Positions 55,444 through 64,000 of a stretch of DNA of 64,000 nt are shown in pieces. The notes below the pieces were generated by a model. It worked only from the letters and a program-made list of their open reading frames with translations. It had not been told where the DNA came from and made no database searches. The first letter of the stretch is position 1, and every line of letters begins with the position of its first letter. Made by a program: the position numbers and the translations under genes. The stretch is from Aridibaculum aurantiacum. GTDB taxonomy: Bacteria; Bacteroidota; Bacteroidia; Chitinophagales; Chitinophagaceae. Location of the stretch: positions 200,989 to 264,988 of the forward strand of contig NZ_JAFEWC010000004.1 of assembly GCF_017355875.1 (NCBI RefSeq). Direction: 5' to 3'.

Positions 55444-55941
55444 ATGAAGAGGAATAGAATAGTTTGGACCAGCATTGCAGGAGTGATATTGGTAGCGGCG
55501 GTCGCTGATGCTGTTCGCTATCTGCAGCCGGAAGCAAAGCCAAAACAACAGGTTCTCCCTGCAGCCACTTTCCCTGTTTCGTCAGCTACAGAAATCATTC
55601 TAGTGTACAATGCTTACGGAGGCATCTATCCGTCCATAGCTGATTTCATCAATAAAGAATTTTTTCCTGCTTCATATCCCTGCAATCTCTGCTATATAAC
55701 CTTCGGAACGTTTGCCATGAAAGATGATTGGAAAACGTTCTTGGACAGCACCGGCTTAAAGAAGAAAGAGATGCACAAAGACTACTTCAACCGGAACTAT
55801 TTACCTACAGACTTTGCCTTGCCTGCTATCCTGGTAAGTGATGGACAGCGCACACAGGTGCTGGTAAGTGCACAAGAGGTAAATGGCTACAAAACATTAG
55901 AGCAACTAAAGCAAGCAGTAGCAGCCAAGCTAACGAAGTAA
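55444..55941 (+). CDS. Uncharacterised membrane-anchored protein with CxxC motif
   Basis: The 165-residue protein has an N-terminal membrane helix (IVWTSIAGVILVAAVADAV) and a compact domain with IILVYNAYGGIYPSIADFIN near 51-70 and a CxxC pair in YPCNLCYITFG near 78-88, followed by MKDDWKTFLDSTG. I recognise the pattern as a widespread uncharacterised family but cannot name a function; the CxxC pair suggests a redox or metal role outside the cytoplasm. It starts 38 bp after the helicase gene and ends one base before the convergent TspO-like gene. Confidence 0.7.
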   Translation: MKRNRIVWTSIAGVILVAAVADAVRYLQPEAKPKQQVLPAATFPVSSATEIILVYNAYGGIYPSIADFINKEFFPASYPCNLCYITFGTFAMKDDWKTFLDSTGLKKKEMHKDYFNRNYLPTDFALPAILVSDGQRTQVLVSAQEVNGYKTLEQLKQAVAAKLTK

Positions 55942-55942
55942 A

Positions 55943-56740
55943 TCACGATCTTTTCAAAGAAGAAGAAACTGCTTTAATGATGATGGCTACCAGTAGTATA
56001 GCTATACATGCAATTGCCACAGCCACTATGTCTTCGCTACCCGCGTTACCTGCTTCATTCCTTTTAGCTATTATTCCATAAAACGCCCAGCATACCACCA
56101 GTGCATAAGCATAATTCTTACTTTTCAAAATCATCACCAGCGCCAGGAGTGCGCCTACACCAATCATGATCATGGTCCACATTGGGCTGCTGATACCAAG
56201 TGGTTGAATATTATTATCAACAAATAAAGTAGTGACATTGGCAATGGTGGCTATACTTATCCAGCCAAGGTATAGGCTGAAAGGAAGATCGAGCCATAGC
56301 TTTTGCTGCAGCGGCCGCCACGGTAGTGCCAGGTCCAGCTTGTGGTGAATAACGATCAAAGTGCTCAACATGATAAACATAATCATTACCGACAAGCCAA
56401 CTATTTCATAATGCCATGCAAATAACCATGCACCATTTGCCATGCAATTCAGAATGAAATAAGGTGAAATGGCAACTATCTTTTCTGTGGCTCCTTTGTT
56501 TTTAAAAAGAACAATAGCTTGGTAAATTATAAACCCCAGCAAGAAAGTATAGATCACACTCCAGATAGAGAAAGTGAAACCTGCAGGCGTGAACAGGTTT
56601 GGATACTGGTCGGCAAGTTCACCTGTGGTTTTATTATTAAGCGGCAGTTTTACCGCTACAATATTCATGAGGACCACAAAGGCAAAAGCAATACAATTCA
56701 GTATTGCCAGCAGCCGGTAATTGATCTTGTTGTTGTACAT
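55943..56740 (-). CDS. TspO/MBR-related integral membrane protein
   Basis: The 265-residue protein has about seven to eight hydrophobic helices. FTPAGFTFSIWSVIYTFLLG near 49-68 and SLYLGWISIATIANVTTLF near 154-172 resemble the signature stretches of the tryptophan-rich sensory protein (TspO/MBR) family, in the longer form found in Bacteroidota. TspO proteins bind porphyrins and respond to stress; the function of this longer branch is not known. It is transcribed alone and ends one base from the gene encoding the CxxC protein. Confidence 0.75.
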   Translation of the reverse strand: MYNNKINYRLLAILNCIAFAFVVLMNIVAVKLPLNNKTTGELADQYPNLFTPAGFTFSIWSVIYTFLLGFIIYQAIVLFKNKGATEKIVAISPYFILNCMANGAWLFAWHYEIVGLSVMIMFIMLSTLIVIHHKLDLALPWRPLQQKLWLDLPFSLYLGWISIATIANVTTLFVDNNIQPLGISSPMWTMIMIGVGALLALVMILKSKNYAYALVVCWAFYGIIAKRNEAGNAGSEDIVAVAIACIAILLVAIIIKAVSSSLKRS

Positions 56741-56850
56741 AAGCTATAGTAATAAGAATAAAAGATAAACAGCATTTCTAGGTTAATGTTCAGAAGGTGA
56801 AACAGGACGTAAACGTACTGCTTTAGCATTTTAATTTTCTTTAACATCTT

Positions 56851-56876
56851 AAAACTATTATCCTGGTGCCGTCGTA
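56851..56876 (+). promoter_or_regulatory. ECF-type promoter, AAAAC-N17-CGTA, copy 1
   Basis: AAAAC at 56851-56855, CGTA at 56873-56876, spacer 17. It is preceded by TTTAACATCTT and lies 22 bp before the TonB receptor start. AAC plus CGT with about 16-17 bases between is the usual form of ECF sigma promoters. The same pattern stands before 59337 and 63517. Confidence 0.6.
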
Positions 56877-56898
56877 GTTAGTTCAAACCACTGCTACT

Positions 56899-59133
56899 AT
56901 GGCCAAATGCTACACTACATTTTTTATTCTATTATCACTCCTGTTCACGGGTGCATTAAAAGCACAGAATGTGATAAACGGGCAAGTGTGGCTGGCACCT
57001 AATGAGCCTGCAGAAGGAGCCCTTGTAACAGTAAAAGATGCAGGCTATTCTTGCATGACAGATAGAGGTGGAAACTTTAAACTAGTGACACCATCTGCTT
57101 CGGCTACATTGATCATAACGCATATTGGCTATGTGCCTGCTGAATATACAGCTACGGCGCAAGGAGATAATAAAGTTTCGCTTGCAAAAGGTGTTTATCA
57201 ACTGGAAGATGTAATACTTAGCAGCGATATTAATTACAAATACTTCCACACCATTTCTAAGGTGGACCTCAATATTCGGCCGGTGCGTTCCTCGCAGGAA
57301 TTGCTTCGAACGGTACCCGGTTTATTTATAGCGCAACATGCTGGTGGTGGCAAAGCTGAGCAAATTTTTTTAAGAGGCTTCGACATTGATCATGGAACCG
57401 ATGTGCAGGTTTCCGTTGATGGGCTACCTGTGAATATGGTTTCCCATGGTCATGGACAAGGATATGCAGACCTGCACTTCCTGATACCGGAATTAGTGAA
57501 AACAATTGATTATGGTAAAGGCCCTTATTATACCGAACATGGAAATCTTAATACGGCAGGATATGTTTCATTCCAAACAATTGATCAGTTGGAGAATAAC
57601 CGCTTCCAGGTAGAAGGTGGACAGTTCAATCATTTACGTGCATTGGCAATGGTAAATATTTTACCAAAAGAAAATGCAAAGCGATCAGCCTTTGTTGCAT
57701 CAGAATTTATGCACTTTGACGGGCCATTTCAATCTGGCCAGAATTTCAACCGATTTAATTTGTTCGGGAAATATATTGAGCACATCTCAACTAATACAAA
57801 ACTTACTTTTTTAGCTTCTGCCTTCAGTAGTAAATGGGATGCATCGGGGCAGGTGCCGCAGCGTGCAATAGATCAAAAAATAATTGATCGTTTTGGTGCA
57901 ATAGATAATACAGAAGGGGGCATCACTGGTCGCTACAATGCAAGTGTTCAATTATCCTCTTTTCTAAAAAATGGGAATAGCATAGAGAGCCAGTTATATT
58001 ATTCTCGTTATTATTTCCAGCTGTATTCCAATTTCACATTTTTCTTACGCGACAGTATAAATGGCGACCAAATAAAGCAAAGTGATGAGCGTGATATAAT
58101 TGGCTTCAATACAAAATATCATATTCCATTTACCATTGGAAATACAAAATTAAAAACAACTGTTGGAGCTTCTATTCGTTACGATAAAACCTACGATACC
58201 GAATTATCTTATACACGTCAAAGGAGCTTTTTAGAACATGCAAAACTGGGAGATATAACAGAAAGTAATGCCGCCATATTCATTGATCAAAAAATACAGT
58301 ACAATCAATGGCTGGTGAATATTGGTTCACGGCTAGATTACCTGCATTTTAATTACCTGGATAAATTATCAGCAAATGCTGATGCACCACAAAACAAATC
58401 TATTGTCAGTCCTAAAATAAATGTTCAATATACATTCAATAAAAAGTTTCAAGCTTTTGTAAAAGCAGGAAAAGGATTTCATTCAAATGATACAAGAGTA
58501 GTAGTAGCCAACCAGGGAAGGCAAATACTGCCACCTGCTTATGGTGCTGATCTAGGATTTAATTTTCACCCAAATAAAAAGCTCGTATTAAATGCTGCCG
58601 TTTGGTATTTATTTCTGCAGCAGGAATTTGTATATGTAGGAGATGAAGGAATTATAGAGCCCAGTGGAAGATCTCGACGTGTTGGGTTAGATCTTTCTGG
58701 CAGGTATCAAATGACAAAATATTTATTTGCTGATGCTAATATTAATATAGCGGGTGCTCGATTGATTGATGAAGAAAAAGGTGAAGATAAAATTCCACTG
58801 GCACCAACATTTACCAGCACCGGCGGAATTACTTACGCAAACAAAACAGGCTGGAATGGAAGTATACGCTACCGATATATAAAAGATAGAGCAGCTAACG
58901 AAACAAATACTGTTATAGCAAAAGGATATTCTTTACTGGATGGAATAATTAATTATACGCACAGGAAATATGAAGTTGGATTGGCAGTAGAAAATGTTTT
59001 AAATGCCTCTTGGAACGAAGCACAGTTTGACACAGAATCCCGGTTGATGAATGAACCATCAGCTATATCCGAATTACACTTTACACCGGGAACACCATTT
59101 TTTGCAAAGATTAAATTAGCTATTATGCTGTAA
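56899..59133 (+). CDS. TonB-dependent receptor with carboxypeptidase-regulatory-like N-terminus
   Basis: The 744-residue outer-membrane receptor has a signal peptide ending LKAQ, a short carboxypeptidase-regulatory-like domain (about 25-100), a plug with VRSSQELLRTVPGLFIAQH, IFLRGFDIDHGTDVQVSVDG and VSHGHGQGYADLHFLIPEL (about 130-200), and a barrel ending FFAKIKLAIML. It is not SusC-type: no SusD gene follows. The plug sequence with HGHGQGYADL is a distinct receptor subfamily that I recognise by pattern; its ligand is unknown to me. It precedes the DUF4331 pair and shares their promoter type. Confidence 0.9.
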   Translation: MAKCYTTFFILLSLLFTGALKAQNVINGQVWLAPNEPAEGALVTVKDAGYSCMTDRGGNFKLVTPSASATLIITHIGYVPAEYTATAQGDNKVSLAKGVYQLEDVILSSDINYKYFHTISKVDLNIRPVRSSQELLRTVPGLFIAQHAGGGKAEQIFLRGFDIDHGTDVQVSVDGLPVNMVSHGHGQGYADLHFLIPELVKTIDYGKGPYYTEHGNLNTAGYVSFQTIDQLENNRFQVEGGQFNHLRALAMVNILPKENAKRSAFVASEFMHFDGPFQSGQNFNRFNLFGKYIEHISTNTKLTFLASAFSSKWDASGQVPQRAIDQKIIDRFGAIDNTEGGITGRYNASVQLSSFLKNGNSIESQLYYSRYYFQLYSNFTFFLRDSINGDQIKQSDERDIIGFNTKYHIPFTIGNTKLKTTVGASIRYDKTYDTELSYTRQRSFLEHAKLGDITESNAAIFIDQKIQYNQWLVNIGSRLDYLHFNYLDKLSANADAPQNKSIVSPKINVQYTFNKKFQAFVKAGKGFHSNDTRVVVANQGRQILPPAYGADLGFNFHPNKKLVLNAAVWYLFLQQEFVYVGDEGIIEPSGRSRRVGLDLSGRYQMTKYLFADANINIAGARLIDEEKGEDKIPLAPTFTSTGGITYANKTGWNGSIRYRYIKDRAANETNTVIAKGYSLLDGIINYTHRKYEVGLAVENVLNASWNEAQFDTESRLMNEPSAISELHFTPGTPFFAKIKLAIML

Positions 59134-59260
59134 CAGCAGGTTCAGAATGGTATACGTAGTTAATTAAATTCAGCATTATTGAATGCTTAGGGCAAGTATT
59201 GCCAATTAGTTTCCTAATCCCCTTCCATTTAAAAATACTTTAATCCTGTTTTAACATTTT

Positions 59261-59286
59261 AAAACTATTGCCGTTGATGTGCCGTA
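59261..59286 (+). promoter_or_regulatory. ECF-type promoter, AAAAC-N17-CGTA, copy 2
   Basis: AAAAC at 59261-59265, CGTA at 59283-59286, spacer 17, preceded by TTTAACATTTT; TTTAACAT(C/T)TTAAAACTATT is shared with copy 1. It lies 50 bp before the ATG at 59337 and overlaps the longer frame that starts at 59268, which argues against that earlier start. Confidence 0.6.
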
Positions 59287-59336
59287 TGTCAGCGGTGGTA
59301 TTGATAACACATTTATCATTTTCTAAAACATCATTT

Positions 59337-61094
59337 ATGAGAAAAAAAATTGTACTCCTAAATGGATGGAAGCTCTGCCTAAGCTTTACATTCATTTTGT
59401 TGTCGTTCCAGGTATTTGCCTCTTCGCATCGCGAAGCGCCATTAATATCTAACGATCCATTGGCTGATAATACAGATGTGTATGCATTCAGAAGTCCTGA
59501 TGATACAAACACTGTTACTATCATAGCCAATTTTATTCCTTTCCAATTGCCAGAGGGAGGACCTAATTATTATGACTTTGGCAAAAACATCCGCTATGAA
59601 ATACACATTAAAAACCGAACAACTACCGTAGGTGATGACATCACTTACAGGTTTACTTTTTCGCTATTCAATGAAGACACTACGACGTTCTTCAATATTC
59701 GACTGGGCAAGGAAAACCTGAAGCAACGTTTTACGCTGGAAAAGAGCACCAATGGCGGAATGAGTTTCACAACCATTCTTACCAATGGCATTGTTCCTCC
59801 TTATAACATTGGGCCTCGTTCTATTGACAGTGCAGGTATAGGATTGGGAATGAGCTATGCAGCCATCATGCAGAATGCCATCAACAACAATGTGGCTACT
59901 ACTGGCGAAAGAGCCTATTGTGGTCCTGTAGACGATCCTTTCTTTGTAGATCTTGCGGGTGCATTCGATGTAGGCAACTTCAGGCCCGAAGGCAATATGA
60001 CCAACCCGCCTAAAGATGGTTTGGCTAGGTTCAATGTGCACACAATAGCTATCAAAGTTCCAATCAGCATGTTGCAGAAAGATGGCAAGAACACTTCGCA
60101 AGCCACCAGCATTTTAGATGGTGATTTTGTGGTGGGTATTTGGGCAAGTGCCAGTCGCCAGCAAATACGCACACTGCAGGATACTTCAAGAAACTACACC
60201 GGTGATTGGGTACAGGTATCGCGCCTGGGCATGCCATTGACCAACGAAGTGGTTATACCTATTGGTGATAAGAACAAGTGGAATACCATAAGCAGCAACT
60301 CGCCTAAAGATTCATTGTTTGATAAATACCTGAAGAATCCAGAGCTCGCTCTTTACATGGATGATTCGCAGTTTGGCCAGGCTGTTCCGGCATGGTATAA
60401 CCTGCGTATCCAAAAGAACTCTCTTGGCATGTTTGATTTCAGAAACGGTAAAAAAGGATTGTTTCCTTTAAAGGGTTCTACTGCTGTTCAAAATACTGCA
60501 CTTGCTGAAAATGCTTTCGGTGGTTACCTGCTGCCTGATAGCATGAGCCCACGTGCAGTTGACCTGCTTCCCATTTTCAAAACAGGTGTTCCTAACCTTC
60601 GTCCTTACCAATTAGCTACGGGTAAAGGTGGTGATCCTTTAGCTGCAGGTAAGCCCTTCATCAACAATTTTCTTCCAACTTTTGGTGACATGTTACGGCT
60701 GAATATGGCAGTACCCGTTACACCACGTAACGATCCAGACTTCAGTTCACTGGGTTTGGTAAAAGCTGCAGTGCTTGGTCTTACAGACAGTCGTTTCAAT
60801 CAAAATGCTTCGTTACAATTCATTCCTAATATGGATGGTTTTCCTAACGGGCGCAGGCTGGAAGATGACGTAACCACCATAGAAATGCAGGCTGTATCGG
60901 GTGTGGTGCTTGCTGCCATTGGTTTGTGGTACGACGACTATAATGGAACCGGTAGTCCTGTAACGCCGCAGTTAGGAAAAGTACTTTCATTTACTGCAGG
61001 GCCAACTAAAAATGACACAACATTCCGCGCAAGCTTCCCTTATGTGCAAACGCCATGGAGAGGCTTCGATTACACAAGGAAAGAAAGGTTCTAA
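59337..61094 (+). CDS. DUF4331 family secreted protein, without sorting domain
   Basis: The 585-residue protein begins with a signal peptide ending QVFA, and the mature part starts SSHREAPLISNDPLADNTD, the DUF4331 hallmark. IANFIPFQLPEGGPNYYDFG, VSRLGMPLTNEVVIPIGDK and FLPTFGDMLRLNMAVPVTPR continue the family pattern. It stops at PWRGFDYTRKERF, just where the tandem copy continues into a linker and T9SS domain, so it lacks the sorting signal. The start at 59337 is preferred to a frame beginning at 59268, which would run through the promoter. Function of DUF4331 is unknown. The second copy follows after 20 bp. Confidence 0.9.
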   Translation: MRKKIVLLNGWKLCLSFTFILLSFQVFASSHREAPLISNDPLADNTDVYAFRSPDDTNTVTIIANFIPFQLPEGGPNYYDFGKNIRYEIHIKNRTTTVGDDITYRFTFSLFNEDTTTFFNIRLGKENLKQRFTLEKSTNGGMSFTTILTNGIVPPYNIGPRSIDSAGIGLGMSYAAIMQNAINNNVATTGERAYCGPVDDPFFVDLAGAFDVGNFRPEGNMTNPPKDGLARFNVHTIAIKVPISMLQKDGKNTSQATSILDGDFVVGIWASASRQQIRTLQDTSRNYTGDWVQVSRLGMPLTNEVVIPIGDKNKWNTISSNSPKDSLFDKYLKNPELALYMDDSQFGQAVPAWYNLRIQKNSLGMFDFRNGKKGLFPLKGSTAVQNTALAENAFGGYLLPDSMSPRAVDLLPIFKTGVPNLRPYQLATGKGGDPLAAGKPFINNFLPTFGDMLRLNMAVPVTPRNDPDFSSLGLVKAAVLGLTDSRFNQNASLQFIPNMDGFPNGRRLEDDVTTIEMQAVSGVVLAAIGLWYDDYNGTGSPVTPQLGKVLSFTAGPTKNDTTFRASFPYVQTPWRGFDYTRKERF

Positions 61095-61114
61095 ACAAAT
61101 CAAATAAGCTTTTT

Positions 61115-63379
61115 ATGAAAAAAATTATAACTCACATAGCAGCCGCTTTGGTTTGTTTACTTGTAACACAAACCACGGTAATGGCTTCTTCGCACCGCGA
61201 GGCGCCATTGATATCAACTGATCCGCTGGCCGATAATACAGACCTCTACGCATTTAGAAGTCCGACCGACTCCAGCAAGATCATTCTGATCGCCAATTAC
61301 ATTCCTTTTGAGCATCCTGCCGGTGGACCTAATTGGTACACCTTCGGAGAAAACATTAGGTACGAAATACATGTAGATAACAATGCAAATACGGCAGGGT
61401 CAGACATCATATATAGATTTACATTTTCACAGGTTAATCAAGATTCTTCTACCTTCTTTAGAATAAGATTGGGTAAGGAGAATTGGAAGACCTCTTATAC
61501 GCTTGAACGCAGCATCGACGGTGGAGCCAGCTTTCTCCCGATCATAACAAATGGAATCGTTCCTCCGCCAAATATTGGTCCGCGTTCTATAGAAAATGCA
61601 ACCGTTGGATTGGGTGCACCTAATTATGACTCGCTGATGCAGCGTGCAATTAAAATGGCAACAACCGGCGAAAAAGTATTTGCCGGTCCTATTGATGATC
61701 CATTTTTCGTAGATCTTGGTGGCGCTTTTGATCTTGGAAACTTCAGGCAGCCAGGTAGAGATGGGTTGGCAAAGTTCAACTGTCATTCCCTGGTTATTGA
61801 AGTTCCTATTTCAACGTTGCAGAAAGATAATCTACCTGTAACGGCAGCTACTAATATTCTTGATGACAGGTTTATCATAGGTGTATTTGCAAGTGCAAGT
61901 CGCCCACAGATCTACACCTTTGACTCTACTGGTGGGAATGGAACAACATCTGGAAATTGGGTACAGGTTTCGCGCCTTGGTATGCCACTTACCAACGAGG
62001 TTGTTATTCCTATTGGTCAGAAGGACAAGTTCAATGCGAACACGACCAGGAACGACAGCCAGTTCCATAAGTTCATGAAAAACCCTGAGCTTGCTTTGTA
62101 CATGGATGACTCGCAATTTGGAACTGCTGTTCCGGGATTGGCCCAATTGCGTATTCAAACAAATTCGCTTGGCCAGTTTGACTTTAGAAATGGCAAGAAA
62201 GGATTGTTCCCATTGAAAGGATCTACAGCGGTACAGGGTACAGCACTTGACGATGCTGCTTTCGGTAATTTCCTTTTACCCGATAGCATGAGCCCAAGAG
62301 CAGTAGATATTTTACCCATATTTACTACTGGCGTTCCTAACCTAAGGCCGTACCAACTAGCAACAGGAAAGCCAAGAGGTAATCCACTGGCTGAGGGTAA
62401 GCCTTTCATCAACAACTTCCTTCCAACCTTTGGTGATATGCTACGCCTGAATATGGCGGTGCCTGCAACACCAAGGAACAGTCCTGACTTTAGCTCACTT
62501 GGTTTAGTTAAAGCTGCTGTGTTAGGATTAACAGACAATCGTTTCAACCAGACCATGGCAATACAGAACATACCAAACATGGATGGTTTTCCTAATGGAA
62601 GAAGATTAGAAGATGATGTAACTACCATTGAATTGCAGGCAGTAGGCGGCGTTGTACTTGCAGCCATCGGCTTATGGTATGACGACTACAATGTAAATGA
62701 TCCTAATGCTAGCCCAGTTACTCCCCAGTTAGGAAGCACGTTAGCTTTTAATGCAGGCGTTACACAAAACGATACAACATTGAAAGCAGCCTTTCCTTTT
62801 GTTCAGGGTCCATGGAGAGGTTTCGTAGGCGCATCGTACCAGGGTGACAATCCACTGCCGGTGAACTTTGTAAACTTTACTGCTGAGAAACAACAAGAAG
62901 ATGTGATGCTACGCTGGCAGGTAAACAACGAGATAAACAATGAATACTACCACGTAGAACAAAGCCTGGATGGCAGGTCATACAAGCAGATAGGCAGAGT
63001 GAATGCAATGGCTGGAACAACCAACCAGTACTCTCACCTGCACACAAATCCTGCTCGCGATAAAGTAAATTACTACAGGCTGAAGCAAGTAGATAAAGAT
63101 GGCAGGTTCACATATTCTGCTATTCGTGCAATTAGGTTTAGCGGCAAAAACTTGCTTACTATTTCACCTAATCCTGCTACTGATGTTATAAGAGTTTTTG
63201 CATCGCAGAACAACATGAACATTCATATACTGGATGAAAATGGCAAACTGCTGATGTCGAGAAAACTAATGAACGGTTCGGTAGAAGTGAACTTAACAGG
63301 ATTGCCTCGCGGAGCTTATATGATAGTAGCCGAAAGCAACGGCGTAAGAATAGAAACTAGAAAGATCATAAAGCAATAA
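61115..63379 (+). CDS. DUF4331 family protein with C-terminal T9SS sorting domain
   Basis: The 754-residue protein has a signal peptide ending TTVMA, and the mature part starts SSHREAPLISTDPLADNTD. The DUF4331 part (to about 575) is closely similar to the upstream copy, then come a fibronectin-like linker (VNFTAEKQQEDVMLRWQVNN, about 600-675) and a type A T9SS C-terminal domain with LTISPNPATDVIRVFAS and LPRGAYMIVAESNGVRIETRKIIKQ. It is thus exported to the cell surface by type 9 secretion. The frame extends upstream to 61055, inside the first copy, but the ATG at 61115 with its signal peptide is the true start. A strong terminator follows. Confidence 0.92.
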   Translation: MKKIITHIAAALVCLLVTQTTVMASSHREAPLISTDPLADNTDLYAFRSPTDSSKIILIANYIPFEHPAGGPNWYTFGENIRYEIHVDNNANTAGSDIIYRFTFSQVNQDSSTFFRIRLGKENWKTSYTLERSIDGGASFLPIITNGIVPPPNIGPRSIENATVGLGAPNYDSLMQRAIKMATTGEKVFAGPIDDPFFVDLGGAFDLGNFRQPGRDGLAKFNCHSLVIEVPISTLQKDNLPVTAATNILDDRFIIGVFASASRPQIYTFDSTGGNGTTSGNWVQVSRLGMPLTNEVVIPIGQKDKFNANTTRNDSQFHKFMKNPELALYMDDSQFGTAVPGLAQLRIQTNSLGQFDFRNGKKGLFPLKGSTAVQGTALDDAAFGNFLLPDSMSPRAVDILPIFTTGVPNLRPYQLATGKPRGNPLAEGKPFINNFLPTFGDMLRLNMAVPATPRNSPDFSSLGLVKAAVLGLTDNRFNQTMAIQNIPNMDGFPNGRRLEDDVTTIELQAVGGVVLAAIGLWYDDYNVNDPNASPVTPQLGSTLAFNAGVTQNDTTLKAAFPFVQGPWRGFVGASYQGDNPLPVNFVNFTAEKQQEDVMLRWQVNNEINNEYYHVEQSLDGRSYKQIGRVNAMAGTTNQYSHLHTNPARDKVNYYRLKQVDKDGRFTYSAIRAIRFSGKNLLTISPNPATDVIRVFASQNNMNIHILDENGKLLMSRKLMNGSVEVNLTGLPRGAYMIVAESNGVRIETRKIIKQ

Positions 63380-63411
63380 GTTTTCTTTCAGAGTTGGGTA
63401 GTTGTTATATA

Positions 63412-63444
63412 TAACCGGTCTGAAAATGACCGGTTATTTTTTTT
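63412..63444 (+). terminator. Rho-independent terminator after the DUF4331 pair
   Basis: TAACCGGTC (63412-63420) pairs perfectly with GACCGGTTA (63428-63436), seven-base loop, then eight T (63437-63444). It separates the DUF4331 transcript from the lipoprotein gene, which therefore needs its own promoter. Confidence 0.93.
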
Positions 63445-63448
63445 ATAT

Positions 63449-63474
63449 AAAACCTTTTTCAAATTGAAAGCGTA
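63449..63474 (+). promoter_or_regulatory. ECF-type promoter, AAAAC-N17-CGTA, copy 3
   Basis: AAAAC at 63449-63453, CGTA at 63471-63474, spacer 17. It stands just behind the terminator and 42 bp before the lipoprotein ATG at 63517. It lacks the upstream TTTAACAT of copies 1 and 2 but has the same two boxes and the same spacing. Confidence 0.55.
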
Positions 63475-63516
63475 CATCAGGTGTTACAACCATCTGCTCA
63501 TACTAAAACCTTGTTT

Positions 63517-64000
63517 ATGCGTATAACATTACTCCTTCTATTTATTGTTGCTATCACTTTTATAGCATGTCAATCTTCGCCAGTAGTAACGGCGGGCACA
63601 TCAGAAACTGAAACTTCTATTCCTGCTCTTTTTGAAAGACAAGGTGAACTGGCCAAGGCTGTAGAATGGCCCAGGACTAAAGAAAAAGTTGCAGAGCTTA
63701 GGCAGAAGATAGCATCAGATCCTACCAACATAAAGCCGCGCCTGCAGATCGCAACTATCTATATCACTGAAGCGCGCATCACAGGTGAGCATCCTTACTA
63801 CTATCCGGCCATTGATAAAATATTGGACGATGTGATTGCGCTTGATGCCAATAGTTACGAGGCACTGGTGCTAAAGGCGTCAGTGAAATTGTCGCAGCAT
63901 AAGTTTAAAGAAGCATTGGCACTGGCTAACCGCGCCAAAGCCATCAACCCAAATGAAGCATATGTATATGGCATATTGGTCGACGCTAATGTGGAGCTTG
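63517..64000 (+). CDS. TPR-repeat lipoprotein, cut by the right window edge
   Basis: The frame runs open from the ATG at 63517 to the end of the window (161 complete codons). It starts with a lipoprotein signal (LLLLFIVAITFIACQS, Cys18). The following residues form paired helices with TPR character: SDPTNIKPRLQIATIYITEA, then ILDDVIALDANSYEALVLKASVKLSQHKFKEALALANRAKAINPNEAYVYG, where the alanine and tyrosine spacing is that of tetratricopeptide repeats. The total length is unknown. It probably sits in the outer or inner membrane and helps assemble a complex. It follows the DUF4331 pair with its own ECF-type promoter. Confidence 0.85.
   Translation, partial: MRITLLLLFIVAITFIACQSSPVVTAGTSETETSIPALFERQGELAKAVEWPRTKEKVAELRQKIASDPTNIKPRLQIATIYITEARITGEHPYYYPAIDKILDDVIALDANSYEALVLKASVKLSQHKFKEALALANRAKAINPNEAYVYGILVDANVEL

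Follow-up and report, generated by a model that had tools for sequence, protein, structure and literature searches.

What controls the genes at the right end of a 64,000-nucleotide stretch of the Aridibaculum aurantiacum genome (part of contig C4 and called the window below)? Three gene units lie there, encoding a TonB-dependent receptor, a pair of DUF4331 proteins and a TPR lipoprotein, and a first-pass annotation had proposed that all three are read from one type of promoter, recognised by an extracytoplasmic function (ECF) sigma factor. Our analysis suggests that the three units very probably form one regulon under the control of a SigK-like ECF sigma factor, which an anti-sigma factor of the RskA type would hold in check. 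The computations show a conserved, directional motif of fixed spacing, its placement before these genes and, in some genomes, a linkage of sigma, rskA, fasciclin and DUF4331 genes. We infer that the motif is the promoter of this SigK-like sigma factor and that a signal is relayed to it via RskA.

A short pattern before three gene units

On both strands of the window there are exactly three matches to AAAAC-N17-CGTA, at 56851-56876, 59261-59286 and 63449-63474, each of them on the + strand; 0.66 would be expected by chance, and 4 of 100 dinucleotide shuffles reach at least three. The boxes, their exact 17-base spacing and their distances from the genes are as originally described: from CGTA to the ATG there are 22, 50 and 42 bases for the genes that start at 56899, 59337 and 63517. 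The sequence reported as common to the TonB receptor and DUF4331 units, TTTAACATnTTAAAACTATT, also stood up to an exact match search: just two exact copies exist in the genome, copy 1 (TTTAACATCTTAAAACTATT, 56840..56859, + strand), an A/T-rich extension of the -35 side, and copy 2 (TTTAACATTTTAAAACTATT, 59250..59269, + strand). Allowing up to 3 mismatches adds 3 further places, every one with 3 mismatches. A search of the whole 4.86-Mb genome with the bare pattern, which had been suggested as a way to find other members, showed no enrichment (44 matches against 118, or 59+59, in the reversed control). Because of this result the bare pattern proves little alone, and it was rejected as a regulon finder. 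The informative signal is instead the longer motif that emerges from cross-species comparison.

A longer motif conserved in relatives

Relatives were compared at 79 loci from named genomes, the best of 405 stretches encoding a relative. DUF4331 is present in all of them, a TPR gene in 64, a TonB receptor like that of the window in 46, a HupE/UreJ-like membrane gene (PF13795) in 34 and a small gene in 15; many of the loci end early at contig ends. These loci overlap in part with the genomes numbered G below (L076 and G098 are one genome), and duplicate loci were dropped just when the upstream stretch (sigma set) or the protein start (DUF4394 set) was identical, so that kinship stays in the counts. 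Gene starts were called mechanically, as the first ATG, GTG or TTG, and were corrected by homology solely in the spacing count.

A matrix was trained on 71 upstream regions of the first DUF4331 gene, D1, with the window genome excluded (55 sites). Its consensus consists of AAAWCYAAA, 13 mostly weak positions and CGTATRT, with a fixed AANCC-N16-CGTA spacing; the 16- and 17-base forms are a single spacing, counted from AAWCC in one case and from AAAAC in the other. Each counted singly, AA[AT][AC]C-N16-CGTA and AA[AT][AC]C-N17-CGTA occur in 32/73 and 21/73 of the D1 upstreams, while the controls gave 0/71 and 1/71 for the internal gene D2 (the second DUF4331 gene) and 10/480 and 8/480 for other genes. 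Spacings of 12-15 and 18-22 bases were not found in any of the 73 D1 upstreams; a spacing of 11 was seen seven times and one of 10 once.

With a threshold of at least 10 bits, and with the window's own gene inside the D1, TPR and TonB sets, the matrix detects a site upstream of 55 of the 73 D1 genes, 24/65 TPR genes, 10/47 TonB receptor genes (mostly a later gene within the cassette) and 6/15 small genes. The same threshold is reached by 0/34 HupE genes, 1/71 D2 genes, 11/480 other genes and 10 of 1460 shuffled D1 upstreams; a leave-one-out test retains the D1 site in 51/72. Ten of the control genes score at least 12 bits, and these include one fasciclin gene (L082) and four PorV-like genes (L083, L087, L101, L108). 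On the opposite strand, no site of at least 10 bits is found in the D1 (73), TPR (65), TonB (47) or small-gene (15) upstreams. The CGTA box lies a median of 56 bases ahead of the called start codon, and the motif is no palindrome. Two boxes at a fixed spacing, oriented with the gene strand, have the form of an ECF promoter. Comparison of the upstream regions of relatives, with its conserved spacing and directional motif, thus supports the proposal of a shared promoter of the ECF type.

Placement of the site in the window genome

How selective is the motif in the genome that was left out of its training? On contig C4 (363,071 bases) only 6 of 724,954 positions score 11.4 bits or more. The highest score of the contig, 19.2 bits, belongs to the predicted promoter of the DUF4331 pair (59259..59292, + strand); it is followed by a site that falls within a reading frame (16.3 bits), the predicted promoter of the ECF sigma gene that is paired with an rskA gene (15.6), a second site within a reading frame (15.4), and the predicted promoters of the TPR lipoprotein gene (63447..63480, + strand; 11.8) and of the TonB receptor gene (56849..56882, + strand; 11.5). 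The three sites of the window therefore occupy ranks 1, 5 and 6, and the promoter of the ECF/RskA pair rank 3. With D1 first and this pair third under a matrix that never saw the genome, the idea of a shared ECF-type promoter is well supported. The string AAWCC-N16-CGTAWNT has 6 matches in the genome, one of them at the SigK-like sigma gene, and 11 in the reversed control. The second DUF4331 gene has no strong site of its own by the matrix (best upstream score 6.4 bits). Elsewhere in the genome, sites stand upstream of a fasciclin gene (22.0 bits), a DUF4394 gene with three matched stretches (19.0 bits), a ferritin-like gene pair whose first member has a twin-arginine-like start (14.5 bits), and gene L253 (13.5 bits). 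The other fasciclin genes of this genome that were read (L332, L333) have no site of at least 9 bits.

A SigK-like sigma factor and its RskA partner

The sigma gene of this pair (C4:348374-348916, - strand) encodes 180 aa with regions 2 and 4 (PF04542, E 1.1e-14; PF08281, E 4.1e-12). The next reading frame downstream is rskA (C4:347508-348374, - strand), recognised by the RskA C-terminal domain (PF10099, E 2e-19). The sigma gene adjoins a gene that we take to be gcvH. Among 22 matches to PDB sequences the top one is SigK (4NQW, E 2.7e-20; next 2.5e-14), and the best NCBIfam model is likewise SigK, at 123.5 bits against a cut-off of 226. The protein has no cysteine in its 180 aa and so lacks the two-cysteine feature of ECF18/ECF19. 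That the sigma and anti-sigma genes lie outside the window had been foreseen; the pair is indeed there, 83.4 kb past the window end, and not at 64-70 kb as had been supposed. We also looked for a sigma gene close behind the window end: the reading frames listed over the 27 kb to C4:292000 include none, and all 19 Sigma70_r2 matches of the genome lie outside both that stretch and the window.

Among 52 distinct upstream stretches of sigma orthologs, that of the window genome included, 16 carry a site of at least 10 bits, located at -56 to -92 and scoring up to 26 bits. The control windows of these orthologs (46/1509 with at least 10 bits) do not provide a clean background: of the 47 sites of at least 10 bits outside the sigma upstream stretch, 27 fall within the sigma gene at +296, and another 13 lie beyond rskA, 1.3-1.6 kb after the sigma start. 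At four loci (L228, L231, L232, L234) sites of 15.7-22.4 bits stand past rskA, some 1.4 kb from the start of the sigma gene; the genes that they precede are presumably VanZ-like.

The internal position deserves separate treatment. A site of at least 9 bits is present at base +296 of the sigma gene in 33 of the 52 orthologs (the set examined being L192, L193-L222 and L225-L251), and it is kept although the peptide encoded there may be of the QNRELTENVY or of the KIQTGEDIVN type. Over 200 trials of synonymous-codon resampling, such sites numbered 1.0 on average and never more than 5, against the 33 observed. Internal and upstream sites tend to exclude each other, the former being found in 5/16 orthologs with an upstream site versus 28/36 without (Fisher p 0.002); the resampling and exclusion tests both ignore the relatedness of the orthologs. 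The internal site is possibly a separate promoter for rskA. If so, it would make anti-sigma without sigma, a built-in negative feedback, and it thereby offers a clear prediction on the feedback wiring.

Linkage of the sigma gene, fasciclin and the DUF4331 cassette

Of the 79 named loci, 5 (L082, L127, L136, L140, L141) have a SigK-like gene in their fetched flanks, and one also lies beside the cassette of G070. The fullest arrangement is that of Taibaiella lutea (L082), where sigma, rskA, two other frames, fasciclin, two DUF4331 genes, TPR, HupE and TonB follow one another, with sites of 17.7 bits ahead of fasciclin and 24.5 bits ahead of DUF4331. In a Kapaibacterium (L140), rskA and sigma point away from DUF4331, TPR and TonB, and a 10.3-bit site stands between the two groups; a fasciclin gene on the other side of rskA is without a site of 9 bits. 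At L127 and in G070 the sigma gene adjoins DUF4331, and no RskA relative was recognised alongside. A sigma gene directly upstream of D1 is not the rule: 8 genes from 6 loci proved by Pfam to be Nudix (2), GSHPx, ApaG, AIM24 or nothing recognisable (3), the exceptions with sigma beside DUF4331 being L127, L140 and G070.

Co-occurrence within the window's family speaks for the regulon as well. A DUF4331 relative at E 1e-20 is found in 26 of its 147 genomes, one of which, G098, is of the same genus. The sigma gene is found in 104 of the 147, namely in 25/26 genomes with the cassette and 79/121 others (Fisher p 0.0008); given its presence in those 79 cassette-less genomes, it must therefore serve more than the cassette.

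Two further gene families were examined. Among 39 distinct fasciclin stretches, a site of at least 10 bits precedes 20/23 of those with a SKDHTTLVAAV-like stretch versus 1/16 of the others, and the copy of this type in the window genome is the one that scores 22.0 bits; we infer that the SigK-like sigma factor uses this site. For DUF4394, 6 of 13 distinct genes have a site of at least 10 bits, the window genome's included, and three others score 6.8-9.3 bits with CGTT replacing CGTA. In G015 (C1:2294931-2297101) a DUF4394 match lies directly ahead of a fasciclin match, a further link of both families.

The gene units of the window

Pfam bore out the gene identities first assigned from the letters. 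The TonB-dependent receptor (56899..59133, + strand, 744 aa) matches PF00593, PF07715 and PF13715; as to its substrate, the nearest NCBIfam names (hemin, B12) fall far under their cut-offs and give no basis for assigning one. D1 (59337..61094, + strand, 585 aa) and D2 (61115..63379, + strand, 754 aa) both match PF14224, with E 3.5e-126 and 1.5e-122 and scores of 422 and 410 bits (cut-off 27), and D2 ends in a C-terminal type IX secretion sorting domain (PF18962, E 5.8e-9). The TPR lipoprotein gene (PF14559, + strand) starts at 63517, runs through position 64000 and continues past the window to C4:265725, for 406 aa in full. By the status of their Pfam entries, DUF4331 and DUF4394 are families of unknown function. 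A structure model of the DUF4331 fold was weak (predicted local distance difference test 60.5, predicted template modelling score 0.66); Foldseek against the PDB returned 0 matches at E<=0.001, the best being 0.07, so that we propose no fold, and the family profile against PDB sequences hit just 5 antibody chains at E>=0.31. Two adjacent frames ahead of the receptor gene, at 55444-55941 (+ strand, 165 aa) and 55943-56740 (- strand, 265 aa), have no Pfam match at E 0.001.

Objections and alternative explanations

Several observations weigh against a single SigK-driven regulon. A site of at least 10 bits is absent from 18/73 D1 and 37/47 TonB upstreams, and both Ignavibacteria loci stay below this threshold (8.9 and -4.6 bits). 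In four Ferruginibacter loci (L083, L087, L101, L108) a PorV-like type IX secretion gene, identified by Pfam (PF19572) for L087 alone, is inserted directly before DUF4331 and carries the site instead. In the window genome itself the TonB and TPR sites are weaker than that of D1 and also rank below the two C4 sites inside reading frames, and the sole HupE/UreJ_2 match lies at C4:128 kb, away from the cassette, in a 3.5-kb stretch without a site (best 1.3 bits). No upstream site of at least 10 bits precedes 36 of the 52 sigma orthologs. Finally, G011 (L059) has the cassette with a 21.6-bit D1 site and no SigK-like match at E 1e-25; it has no fasciclin match at E 1e-10 either.

Could another ECF sigma factor read the promoter, either by itself or as the upper step of a cascade that includes the SigK-like factor? 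ECF promoters resemble one another, the genome has 19 Sigma70_r2 matches of which 15 are over the cut-off, and the G011 site without a detected SigK-like gene would fit such a scheme. The most obvious candidate is the ECF gene L153 (C2:476044), which has a 15.2-bit site 144 bases upstream and might thus be part of a cascade. In its clade, however, a site of at least 10 bits is found at just 3/31 loci, L153 included, versus 16/52 in the SigK-like clade, and L153 was rejected as the regulator on this lack of conservation. The other 17 sigma upstreams of the window genome score at most 4.1 bits, and the cassette linkage points to the SigK-like clade, not to L153; we consider control by another ECF factor improbable. 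Still less credit is due to the notion that the motif is the operator of a DNA-binding regulator and not a sigma promoter. Some sites are indeed distant from the called start codon, by as much as 165 bases, but the two boxes keep their 16-base spacing without a palindrome, occur in a single orientation (0 on the opposite strand of the 73 D1 upstreams) and place CGTA at the median distance given above, all of which makes an operator very improbable. Mere chance, that is, three matches to a short pattern in an A/T-rich genome, would accommodate the missing genome-wide enrichment and the shuffles that yield at least three matches in the window. A matrix made without this genome nevertheless singles out the same three sites among 724,954 positions, and the D1 site recurs in 55/73 relatives; the comparison speaks strongly against chance for D1, and we regard this explanation as the most improbable of all.

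A proposed regulon and its possible role in stress

A regulon of a SigK-like sigma factor that RskA holds would operate as follows. An envelope signal would relieve the hold of RskA on the sigma factor, and the freed sigma would direct RNA polymerase to AAAWCYAAA-N13-CGTATRT promoters. It would then transcribe its own operon and the genes for the secreted fasciclin protein, the exported DUF4331 pair, the TPR lipoprotein and the TonB receptor; a HupE/UreJ-like membrane protein would join the same cassette in many relatives, and the DUF4394 protein and two ferritin-like proteins are probable further targets. More broadly, we give about an even chance to a SigK/RskA-type stress regulon common to Bacteroidota and Kapabacteria, where a single class of ECF promoter would jointly serve fasciclin, a DUF4331-TPR-HupE/UreJ-TonB export/uptake cassette, DUF4394 and ferritin-like genes, the anti-sigma often having its own promoter inside the sigma gene. 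It is a guess, and a rather doubtful one, that under stress these proteins acquire or handle a metal or cofactor at the cell surface.

Placing DUF4331 and DUF4394 under one switch with a TonB receptor would reduce them to one testable question, namely which signal relieves RskA and what the surface system handles. With the promoter matrix, members of the regulon can be annotated in further genomes. Passages of PMC9861118 term the stimuli of the SigK system in mycobacteria obscure, and harmless soil Bacteroidota may be a new place to find them.

Comparison with known systems

No paper naming DUF4331 was found among the open-licence papers searched and, among the matches listed there, none treats this regulon in Bacteroidota, judged by title or start of abstract. 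The surface system had been put forward as an undescribed one. Its switch is of a known kind, SigK/RskA; as far as we searched, the target set and the internal site are undescribed.

Among cell-surface signalling ECF factors, FecI/FecR works with TonB receptors. The window system is similar in having a TonB receptor under ECF control, here predicted, and differs in that its anti-sigma is by Pfam of the RskA type and not FecR, and in that the receptor is one target of several. In the PorX-PorY-SigP system, which controls type IX secretion in Porphyromonas (PMC4800418), a Bacteroidota ECF sigma factor is likewise tied to protein export, and D2 bears a type IX sorting domain; in contrast to the system proposed here, the start of the abstract names a two-component cascade acting on secretion components, and neither an RskA-type anti-sigma nor these targets.

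The closest parallel is SigK-RskA (ECF18/ECF19) of mycobacteria and Yersinia. Passages of PMC7509140 describe an mpt83-sigK-rskA cassette whose SigK site is still conserved in Yersinia, as well as an RskA that both inhibits and activates; two cysteines are stated there to be required for full activation by RskA and to be present in 94% of ECF18 and 56% of ECF19, a common feature and not a defining one. PMC7406223 notes a class I anti-sigma in the vicinity of just 6% of Bacteroidetes ECFs. Passages of PMC9861118 report two light-induced M. kansasii fasciclin genes, and an excerpt of PMC7074977 has a fasciclin gene in a table of Rhodobacter photooxidative stress responses; the passages of PMC4821874 and PMC8103513 contain no SigK consensus. 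Both systems have an ECF sigma factor with an adjacent RskA-type anti-sigma, SigK 4NQW being the top PDB sequence match of the sigma factor studied here, and a fasciclin gene is linked to the Bacteroidota pair in several genomes, with a predicted site ahead of it. The window system differs in belonging to Bacteroidota, in a sigma factor without cysteines, in predicted targets that reach to DUF4331, TPR, TonB receptor, DUF4394 and ferritin-like genes, and in the site within the sigma gene.

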